A stretch of 64,000 nucleotides of DNA from Pseudomonadota bacterium (GTDB lineage Bacteria > Pseudomonadota > Gammaproteobacteria > Steroidobacterales > Steroidobacteraceae): positions 1 to 64,000 of the forward strand of contig CANGJP010000004.1 in the NCBI GenBank assembly GCA_947454465.1. Reading direction: 5' to 3'. The notes beneath the pieces were generated by a model, which saw nothing but the letters and a program-made list of their open reading frames with translations, had not been told where the DNA came from and did not search any database. The stretch's first letter is position 1; each line of letters begins with the position of its first letter. Both the position numbers and the translations under genes were made by a program. Shown piece after piece: positions 6,703 to 12,552 of the stretch.

Positions 6703-7746
6703 ATGAAAAAAGTACTCATCATCGGCGTTAACGGGTTCATCGGCCATCACCTCGCCAATCGCATCCTGCGTACCACCGACTGGGAAGTGTATGGCATGGA
6801 TATGAACTCTGACCGTATCGACCACTTACGTTCCGACAAACGCTTCCATTTCTTTGAAGGCGACATCACCATCAATCGCGAATGGATTGCCTACCACATC
6901 AAGAAGTGCGATGTAATTCTGCCGCTTGTGGCCATCGCCACGCCTGCCACCTACGTACAAGAACCACTACGCGTGTTCGAACTGGACTTTGAAGCTAACC
7001 TGCCGATTGTGCGTGCCGCCGTGCAGTACAAAAAACGCCTAATTTTCCCTTCCACTTCTGAAGTGTATGGCATGTGTGATGATGAAGCCTTCGATCCAGA
7101 AACCTCTAACACCGTGTACGGCCCCATCAACAAACCACGCTGGATTTATGCTTGCGCCAAGCAAATGATGGATCGCGTGATCCATGCTTACGGCCAGCAA
7201 CAAGGTTTTGATTTCACCCTGTTCCGCCCGTTCAACTGGATTGGCTCTGGCCTGGACTCCATCAACACTGCAAAAGAAGGCAGCTCACGCGTGTTGACCC
7301 AGTTCCTCGGACACATTGTGCGCGGCGAACCCATTAAGCTGGTCGACGGTGGTCAGCAAAAACGCTCATTCACGCATATCGAAGACGGTATCGATGCGCT
7401 CATGGCCATCATCGAAAACAAGAATGGCGTGGCGACCGGCAAGATCTACAACATTGGTAATCCAGCCAACAATTTCTCTATTCGTGAATTAGCGCAAAAT
7501 ATGCTGACGCTGGCGGCTAAATACCCCGAGTACGCCGAATCCGCAAAAAAAGTGCAGCTCATCGAAGTCCAAGCCAAGAGCTACTACGGTGAGGGGTATC
7601 AGGACGTCAAAAACCGCGTGCCTAAAATCGATAACACCTGCGCCGATTTAAACTGGAAACCACAAGTCAGCATGGATCAAGCCTTGGAACGTATTTTCGA
7701 GTCCTACCGCACGCACGTACGTGACGCACAGGACTTGTTAAATTAA
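6703..7746 (+). CDS. ArnA UDP-glucuronate decarboxylase (dehydrogenase) domain as stand-alone protein
   Basis: MKKVLIIGVNGFIGHHLANRI...FPSTSEVYGMCDDEAFDPETSN...WIYACAKQMMDRVIHAYG; SDR family, start at 6703 within ORF 6664-7746. Confidence 0.9.
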   Translation: MKKVLIIGVNGFIGHHLANRILRTTDWEVYGMDMNSDRIDHLRSDKRFHFFEGDITINREWIAYHIKKCDVILPLVAIATPATYVQEPLRVFELDFEANLPIVRAAVQYKKRLIFPSTSEVYGMCDDEAFDPETSNTVYGPINKPRWIYACAKQMMDRVIHAYGQQQGFDFTLFRPFNWIGSGLDSINTAKEGSSRVLTQFLGHIVRGEPIKLVDGGQQKRSFTHIEDGIDALMAIIENKNGVATGKIYNIGNPANNFSIRELAQNMLTLAAKYPEYAESAKKVQLIEVQAKSYYGEGYQDVKNRVPKIDNTCADLNWKPQVSMDQALERIFESYRTHVRDAQDLLN

Positions 7747-10036: not shown

Positions 10037-10519
10037 CTAGTAAGGTCGATCTCGCAAGTGATACTTAAACAACAGTTTTGATAACACTATTTCACCCACA
10101 AAGAACCCCAGCACGACCAGCGCGATATCAATCCAGGATAAGGACAGGACAGAACGTACTGCCAGCAAAGGAAATAAGGCTTCAGGAATCTGATCCAAAC
10201 CAGTGGCACGACTACTCGACGCTCGACCTAGACGTCGTTTGATAAAACTGGAGGACAAATCGCCAGCCATCGCATAGACGGCTATGGAAAATCCTATGTT
10301 CAGTTCTAACCCTAAAAACAAGGCGCCCAATGATGTGACCAGTAAAGCAGCGACAACGCCGCGTACCGTTTTGGAGGCTCCAAAAATAGGCTGGCCATCA
10401 AAAAAAAGAACGCGACCATCTAGCGGATAACACCACCGTTCACGCAGGATATTTTTAGCCAGCAGAGGTGCAGCGTTGGCCAACGCCAAGAGCACCAGTA
10501 ATTTAACACCCAATGCCAT
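10037..10519 (-). CDS. CDP-archaeol synthase-like (CarS/DUF46) membrane protein
   Basis: LDGRVLFFDGQPIFGASKTVRGVVAALL...AGDLSSSFIKRRLGRASSSRATGLDQIPEALFPLL; CDP-alcohol synthase-like motifs. Confidence 0.75.
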   Translation of the reverse strand: MALGVKLLVLLALANAAPLLAKNILRERWCYPLDGRVLFFDGQPIFGASKTVRGVVAALLVTSLGALFLGLELNIGFSIAVYAMAGDLSSSFIKRRLGRASSSRATGLDQIPEALFPLLAVRSVLSLSWIDIALVVLGFFVGEIVLSKLLFKYHLRDRPY

Positions 10520-10630: not shown

Positions 10631-10661
10631 AAAAAAAAGGCCGGGTCTTACTACACCGGCC
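10631..10661 (-). terminator. Rho-independent terminator of candidate sRNA
   Basis: Minus strand GGCCGG TGTAGTAAGAC CCGGCC TTTTTTTT. Confidence 0.85.
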
Positions 10662-10798
10662 AATCAGGGGGATTCGAGCACTAAATAGCAATCACACAGC
10701 CAAGATAAGGAATGACATTCACATCACTTCAACACTCACTTAGCATCAGACCCCGTCACCAAGAACACGCTTCTTATGTGACCTGAGTCGCAAACCGT
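10631..10798 (-). ncRNA. Candidate intergenic sRNA, unclassified
   Basis: Sigma70-like promoter TTGAGT-N17-TAGAAT on minus strand, a ~43-nt stem-loop (GTCAC/GTGAC and AAGAA/TTCTT arms), and terminal GGCCGG-N11-CCGGCC-T8; no ORF track entry. Confidence 0.55.
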
Positions 10799-10804
10799 GG
10801 AGGT

Positions 10805-10833
10805 ATTCTACAAACCTCAACCTTTCAACTCAA
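10805..10833 (-). promoter_or_regulatory. Predicted sigma70 promoter of candidate sRNA
   Basis: -35 TTGAGT (10828-10833), 17-nt spacer, -10 TAGAAT (10805-10810), read on minus strand. Confidence 0.6.
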
Positions 10834-10930: not shown

Positions 10931-11485
10931 TTATTGCTCAGGCAGCAAAATAATACAACTACCACTTAAACGATCATGCCAAGTCAACTTGTCTGGTTGT
11001 ATATACATCCGCAACAGACCCAATACACCCAGCACACACACACCATCACCAATGATGGTTAACCAGACTAACTGCCACCGCTCGGCCACATTAAGCGCAA
11101 CCGAAGCGCAAAACCACGGCAGCACTGCCAACACCCACCGCCTCAATGATTGCCCCCAGGTCAGCACTTCGCCCCCGAGCGACACCACTTTAATCCGCCA
11201 AGCACGCATGCCTATTGTCTGTCCATTGCGCACCCAAAAATATCCGTAAAACCCGAGCCATACTCCGAGCATGGTTGTCAGATAAAAAAAGTACATAGAC
11301 CAGCCCACTTCACTGGGCACCATGGCCTTCTTACCGAGCAGATTCAATATGGGTACAAAAACAAACAAGGTAGTCAGCGCCAACAGACCAAACACTACCA
11401 ACGCATCGGACAACATGGCACCAAGACGACGGAATAAGCTAGCGAATACCACCGCGTTGACTCTAGCCTTCTGAAATTCAATCAT
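10931..11485 (-). CDS. RDD family membrane protein
   Basis: FRRLGAMLSDALVVFGLLAL...GQTIGMRAWRIKVV...LTWHDRLSGSCIILL; start MIEFQKARV overlaps the lptG stop. Confidence 0.85.
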   Translation of the reverse strand: MIEFQKARVNAVVFASLFRRLGAMLSDALVVFGLLALTTLFVFVPILNLLGKKAMVPSEVGWSMYFFYLTTMLGVWLGFYGYFWVRNGQTIGMRAWRIKVVSLGGEVLTWGQSLRRWVLAVLPWFCASVALNVAERWQLVWLTIIGDGVCVLGVLGLLRMYIQPDKLTWHDRLSGSCIILLPEQ

Positions 11486-12552
11486 CAACGCACCCTTGCC
11501 AAAGCAATAGCCGTCACCACCGACAGAGCAACTGTTGGCCCCCATGCCACAATCAGCGGATCAAGCGCATAAATAGGACGCGCATTGCCAAGCAACTTAG
11601 CTAACAGAAAAAACACCGCCCCCACTGATATCCCGATCACGATACGAGCTCCCATCCCTGAAGTACGCATCGAACCAAAAGAAAAGGGCACCGCCAACAT
11701 CACAATCACAAGAATTGAACAGGTACGTGCCACGCGTATCCAGAAAGCCGTTCGATAATCATCTGACTTAAGATGATTTGCCTCCAAGTAGCTGGCGTAT
11801 TTTAACAATGCTCGGCCTGTCAACGAGCCGGGTTCCGCTCGTGCAGTACCCAAAAATTCGGCAGATAAATTAGTATGAAACTCGGCATTGGACTCATGAC
11901 GTACCACTACCTGATCAGCCACAAACTGAGTTTCCTCATAATTCTGCAAGTGCCAAGTTTGTGATTGATCAACAGCGGCGGCTACAGCCCGTCCGATACT
12001 TTGTAATTGATGTTGCTGATCAAAGCGTACGACATATAACCCACTCAAGCTATTGAAGTCCGTTTGCTTATGAACAGAAACAAAAACGTTACCGTCTCTA
12101 GCCCACAAGGTTTCATTACGCTCTGATTGACGCTGATTGGTTTGGGACAATGTTTTGTATTCAGCAGCAAACTGCTCTGCTGGTGGCGCTAAATAATCCC
12201 CCACCCACCAAGTGATCACGGTCAGCAACGTGCCAGCAACACCAACCCATCCTGCAAGACGAAACACAGAAACGCCTGAGGCGCGCATTACGACCAATTC
12301 ACTACTGCGCGCAAGATTACCCAGTGCCAACAAAGCGCCCATCAACGAAGCAATGGGCAACACTGTAAAAGCCTGTTGCGGCAAACGACACGCCACCACA
12401 ACTAGCGCATCAAAAACACCGTAGCGACCAATACCAAGCTCATTCATCTGGGTAAGAAACAGATATAACCCAGTTAAAACCAGCAACAATGCCATCACTA
12501 AGGCGGTATAGCCCAGAACTTCTTTAAAAACATACCGAGATAAGACCGACAT
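11485..12552 (-). CDS. lptG: LPS export ABC transporter permease LptG
   Basis: MSVLSRYVFKEVLGYTALVMALLLVLTGLYLFLTQMNELGIGRYG; adjacent to lptF; start trimmed from ORF end 12660. Confidence 0.92.
   Translation of the reverse strand: MSVLSRYVFKEVLGYTALVMALLLVLTGLYLFLTQMNELGIGRYGVFDALVVVACRLPQQAFTVLPIASLMGALLALGNLARSSELVVMRASGVSVFRLAGWVGVAGTLLTVITWWVGDYLAPPAEQFAAEYKTLSQTNQRQSERNETLWARDGNVFVSVHKQTDFNSLSGLYVVRFDQQHQLQSIGRAVAAAVDQSQTWHLQNYEETQFVADQVVVRHESNAEFHTNLSAEFLGTARAEPGSLTGRALLKYASYLEANHLKSDDYRTAFWIRVARTCSILVIVMLAVPFSFGSMRTSGMGARIVIGISVGAVFFLLAKLLGNARPIYALDPLIVAWGPTVALSVVTAIALARVR

Follow-up and report, generated by a model that had tools for sequence, protein, structure and literature searches.

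Does the stretch between an RDD-family protein gene and a CarS-like gene in a Steroidobacteraceae genome carry a small RNA gene of its own, and, if so, what might the RNA do? The window, the whole 64,000-nucleotide stretch that was analysed, comes from contig 4 of a genome of 2.14 Mb. The original prediction placed an unannotated small RNA gene here, with its own promoter, an extended stem-loop and a terminator. The features of the locus, in window coordinates, are listed below.

10828..10833, minus strand: -35 element TTGAGT, from sequence reading and a promoter scan, with counterparts in the congeners
10805..10810, minus strand: -10 element TAGAAT, with a 17-nt spacer to the -35 element and counterparts in the congeners
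10631..10797, minus strand: predicted small RNA transcript of ~167 nt, its putative start ~7 nt past the -10 element
10749..10789, minus strand: 5' hairpin GACUC..GUCAC..AAGAA-loop-UUCUU..GUGAC..GGGUC, seen in folds, in this genome only
10662..10677, minus strand: invariant C-rich seed UCGAAUCCCCCUGAUU, mostly unpaired, from conservation and pairing probability
10631..10661, minus strand: Rho-independent terminator GGCCGG-N11-CCGGCC-T8, from sequence reading, with its pairs kept in homologues
10931..11545, minus strand: upstream neighbour, RDD-family protein gene (Pfam PF06271), after lptF/lptG-like genes
10037..10519, minus strand: downstream neighbour, CarS-like gene (Pfam PF01864)

Anatomy of the locus

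The predicted promoter TTGAGT-TGAAAGGTTGAGGTTTG-TAGAAT was present on the minus strand, with TTGAGT at 10833-10828 and TAGAAT at 10810-10805. The terminator was also where it had been placed, with GGCCGG at 10661-10656, an 11-nt loop, CCGGCC at 10644-10639 and T8 at 10638-10631; it was missing from a simple terminator scan because the loop exceeds 8 nt. No ORF of at least 60 aa was found inside 10631-10833, which confirmed the predicted lack of a credible reading frame, and the element had one sequence copy in the window's own genome. The extended stem-loop could be located at 10789-10749, but conservation was lacking even among the congeners, and the hairpin is not the part that matters.

Taken alone, these features are not above chance. 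The 2.5-kb region had four promoter-like sites, compared to 2.6 ± 1.7 in shuffles, and the folding energy of the transcript was -47.4 kcal/mol (z = -0.74), with 49 of 200 shuffles folding equally well. It is conservation that lifts the element well above chance.

The downstream gene at 10037-10519 (minus strand) belongs to the CDP-archaeol synthase family (PF01864) and lies in a bacterial genome beside lptFG-RDD. The congener G002 has no CarS-like gene between the small RNA and an oxidoreductase gene.

Conservation of the 3' module and of the predicted promoter

The last ~50 nt (UCGAAUCCCCCUGAUUGGCCGG...CCGGCC-T8) were nearly identical across the genus (four of four genomes). The module was also found, slightly varied and mostly in a single copy per genome, in a second genus (Steroidobacter/Povalibacter-like). 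A search of relatives recovered the 3' end in all three congeners, over roughly 54-59 nt in two and a shorter length in G001, as well as in a single genome from another genus of the family; the match over ~54 nt was 98% and 93% for two congeners and 87% for another genus. The 18-mer TCGAATCCCCCTGATTGG, with at most one mismatch, occurred in the four genus genomes and in seven second-genus genomes, and in none other of 217 family genomes. The pattern CCCCCTGA-N14-44-T7 had matches in 22 of 154 family genomes, as compared to two genomes for the reversed control, and this pattern brought in a third genus (g19). In a search with a covariance model built on the 3' module (A1, R1), every second-genus genome that appeared reached at least 36 bits; model matches under ~29 bits from the family's other genera were discarded as mostly seedless terminators. 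In public genomes, an exact 22-mer was found in seven records, three of them under Steroidobacteraceae, Steroidobacter or Povalibacter uvarum, while an exact-pattern scan of viral contigs gave no match. Further modules consisting of CCCCCUGAUUG and a terminator were seen in the third genus at L122 (G185) and L305-L308 (genus g19), two of them in G185.

Within the module, UCCCCCUG, which lies outside the terminator stem, did not vary among 22 aligned sequences, which come from several families. The six pairs of the terminator were kept in 12 of 12 homologues, one of which had changed on both sides; a single two-sided change in 12 sequences is little covariation. Between the promoter and the seed the homologues hardly aligned and every RNA had its own stems. 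The extended 5' hairpin, absent from congeners and relatives, was rejected as a functional element. Judged from the alignments and predicted folds, the conserved core is the single-stranded C-rich seed at 10677-10662 together with the terminator, not the long hairpin. The computed probability that CCCCCUG is unpaired was 0.53 in the window RNA and 0.46-0.95 across all homologues, and its accessibility relative to the other 7-mers of the same RNA fell at percentile 0.62-0.97. The conserved, accessible C-rich seed that characterizes trans-acting small RNAs of this type was thus found here.

A -35/N17/-10 pair was present upstream of the module in all four genus genomes and in 12 second-genus genomes. 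The genus promoters were TTGAGT/TAGAAT in the window, TTGTGC/TATATT in G001, TTGAAT/TAGAAT in G002 and TTGTTC/TATATT in G003, each with a 17-nt spacer, and most second-genus members had TTGTG[CT]-N17-TAT[AC]TT, extended as TAT[AC]TTTGGCA. We infer transcription from these recurring promoter-like sequences, with predicted transcripts of 90-167 nt in the four genus genomes and 90-197 nt over the homologues. For the homologue in Povalibacter uvarum DSM 26723 (L011, seed at 7590+), the putative 5' end is ~36 nt from the beginning of a TTGTGC box and the predicted RNA is ~180 nt long.

The surroundings of the module varied. In G002 and G003 it follows the RDD gene, syntenic with the window, and in G030, in Povalibacter and in a Steroidobacter-like MAG it lies away from RDD. 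A conserved gene of unknown family (L013:1267-2022, also L004, L005, L006 and L007) runs convergently towards the module in G001, G003 and the second genus; its protein (MTPADRRI...ADAVRLLKWGKPWHELAELI...) has no Pfam match. Since the contexts differ among genomes, the small RNA is not tied to any single upstream gene. Module conservation, the varied contexts and the recurring promoter-like pairs together support the original prediction of a small RNA gene between the RDD and CarS-like genes.

Known small RNAs and the probable origin of the predicted transcript

A scan of the whole window with Rfam 15 at gathering threshold returned only a tRNA-Arg, and 6S, SRP (4.5S), tmRNA, RNase P and Spot 42 were not among the matches, as comparison by eye had suggested; no family reached threshold for the element. 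With loose E-values no family membership emerged and the nearest models were SorX and MmgR. The paper searches that were made turned up no report of a small RNA from this group of bacteria. The element 10631-10833 is very probably a small RNA gene missing from Rfam.

SorX of Rhodobacter sphaeroides (RF02784) resembles the window RNA in having a C-rich single strand (CCUCCCUG/CCCCCUG) directly before a GGCCGG-CCGGCC-U terminator. Whole-length matches to the SorX model scored 32.7 (in G203), 32.6 (in a module beside lipA), 24.4 and 23.3 bits for homologues, and the window scored 16.7 bits, so that neither the window nor the best homologue reached the gathering threshold of 46.6 bits. SorX is produced by processing from a 3' UTR (PMC9438474), that of an OmpR-type regulator gene, whereas the window RNA appears to own a promoter, its upstream gene is of the RDD family and the context in relatives differs. 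The seed letters also differ (CUCCCUGUUGGA versus UCCCCCUGAUU), and SorX is alphaproteobacterial. MmgR/suhB of Sinorhizobium meliloti (RF00519, alpha-r8) is, like the window element, a stand-alone gene with a C-rich core before the terminator, but the window scored 16.8 bits against a threshold of 41. Because membership in both families fails on score, the RNA was filed as a new family with a known way of working. The Xanthomonas RNA sX13 acts through C-rich loops to repress mRNAs that carry G-rich sites close to their starts (PMC3771888), and C-runs acting on G-rich sites around translation starts are what we propose for the window RNA. In sX13, however, the C-runs occupy three hairpin loops rather than one linear seed beside the terminator, and the Rfam scans gave no sequence match to any Xanthomonas RNA family.

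The best reading, supported by the comparative evidence, is that of an independent small RNA gene. Alternatively, the RNA could be a tail of the lptFG-RDD mRNA that is released by an RNase, lacks its own promoter and acts through the same seed. No terminator was detected between the RDD end at 10931 and the module, and SorX arises in this way (PMC9438474). Look-alike modules also lie in 3' UTRs elsewhere: in other families they follow a ~65-aa gene that stands upstream of lipA, and in G208 one follows alanine dehydrogenase. Nevertheless, exact 17-nt-spacer promoter-like pairs occur in all congeners and in relatives without RDD, in several of which the next upstream gene is divergent, and we regard a 3'-UTR origin as unlikely. 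That the module is simply the terminator of the RDD operon, without any regulator, would be a plausible job for it, and the predicted RNA does not outdo shuffles in folding; this is very unlikely given that UCCCCCUG, beyond the stem, is invariant in the 22 aligned sequences and is kept in carriers that have no RDD gene upstream. A small-protein gene on the transcript is scarcely credible: ATG codons exist, but the frames are only a few codons long and are not conserved, as the congeners do not align over the 5' region.

More specifically, a stand-alone RNA might be an MmgR counterpart under PhaR control, with a role in tuning carbon storage. PhaR recognizes such palindromes in alphaproteobacteria: in S. 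meliloti it binds YGCRNYGCR-type sites, mmgR included (PMC12542648), and AniA/PhaR represses mmgR, in whose promoter a dyad sits between the -35 and -10 elements (PMC8401924). A YGCRNNGCR-like dyad overlaps the -35 element and spacer in G001 and the second genus, as read from the alignment; five promoters had the exact YGCRNYGCR and the remaining dyads were one or two letters off. The dyad was absent, however, from the promoters of the window, G002 and G003, and suhB/MmgR, although among the sub-threshold Rfam matches, was far below its threshold. This version is improbable. The strict pattern TTGTGCTGC-N3-5-CAGCA was rejected as a regulon-wide operator, yielding the small RNA promoter and two intragenic coding matches in 16 genomes; the pattern is too strict, so the PhaR regulon cannot be judged from it.

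Two kinds of similar module were seen elsewhere. In other families of the order (L044, L048, L051, L053, L055, L056 and L058-L061), UUCCCCCUG(U)AUUG is followed by a stem and T8. This module lies in the 3' UTR of the ~65-aa gene, whose product ends in NWSRLH/NWSRVH-like letters and has no Pfam or NCBIfam match, and it adjoins lipA where lipA was seen; it could be a relative of the window RNA that derives from a 3' UTR, or a case of convergence. In G208 (contig 20, L025:1482-1543), a second copy of the seed and terminator comes right after the alanine dehydrogenase gene.

Proposed action and candidate targets

Our preferred reading, to which we assign a probability of roughly 0.6, is that a sigma-70 promoter drives a stand-alone RNA of ~167 nt that would act in trans. 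The 5' two thirds would be free to evolve as species-specific stems, and the business end would be the invariant, mostly unpaired seed immediately 5' of the terminator. We infer pairing, repression and targets. CCCCCUG could pair with CAGGGG-type Shine-Dalgarno sites, and the longer seed CCCCCUGAUU complements G-rich Shine-Dalgarno sequences led by (AAU)CA, for example AAUCAGGGG or CAGGGGG. Such pairing would block translation initiation. Exported proteins would be the likely targets at the mRNA level. In the Steroidobacter-like genus these would be TonB-dependent receptors, and in the window's own genome the best candidate is a secreted cupin mRNA (G000 contig 21, minus strand, start at ~19771).

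The target counts used start codons picked by rule, not annotation. In G208 and G209, CAGGG occurred near the start of 14 of 60 TonB receptors and 4 of 264 other genes (p = 2e-8, uncorrected, with several patterns tried), and CAGGGGG near 6 of 60 and 0 of 264, respectively; AAGG and TAGG were not enriched at the same receptor starts (60 vs 264 starts). Receptor starts had CAGG in 27 of 59 cases in two carrier genomes and in 10 of 48 in three non-carriers (p = 0.008, uncorrected), and the ratio of CAGG to WAGG (AAGG/TAGG) was 27:8 for carriers, as compared to 10:17 for non-carriers (p = 0.002, uncorrected). Genes other than receptors showed no significant shift between CAGG and WAGG when carriers and non-carriers were compared. 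The receptors of the three genomes that lack the RNA also favour G-runs, with A or T more often the leading letter. The carrier-specific receptor signal, which comes from two carriers and three non-carriers, is moderate. TonB plug domains number 79 in G208 and 99 in G209, as compared to 6-8 in the genomes of the window's genus.

Within the window's own genus, a targeting of TonB receptors was not supported: none of 15 receptor starts had CAGGG. The target scan of the window's genome covered 464 kb, about 22% of the total, and the top site in this sample was CCAAUCAGGGG, 6 nt before the ATG of the secreted cupin gene, with 11 contiguous pairs and a predicted energy of -21.8 kcal/mol. The real seed had 10 strong sites in the same sample and flank-permuted seeds 23.7 ± 7, a shortage that may reflect avoidance or mere composition.

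Several other candidates were set aside. TCAGGGGGA before ATG was rejected as a carrier-specific signal (37 in carriers, 29 in non-carriers), and simple pattern counts did not separate carriers from non-carriers. Genes with signal peptides were weak as a target class, and a duplex-permutation test on secreted-protein genes was not specific because it was positive in non-carriers too. When the 13-mer complement was searched in the genus with two mismatches, only the small RNA itself matched perfectly and no convincing start-site target appeared. Overall, the sequence support for targets masked at the Shine-Dalgarno site is moderate.

A broader, rather doubtful reading would make this a Steroidobacteraceae small RNA family, in part with a PhaR-type dyad in the promoter, that represses many TonB receptors through a shared CAGGGG Shine-Dalgarno, with a portable seed module that also occurs in unrelated 3' UTRs. 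The locus appears to add a small RNA that stands outside every Rfam family. If the receptor link holds, it would provide one handle on the very large sets of TonB receptors in Steroidobacter-like bacteria, and the small RNA would offer a clear test case of whether the start sites of a class of genes co-evolve with a small RNA seed.
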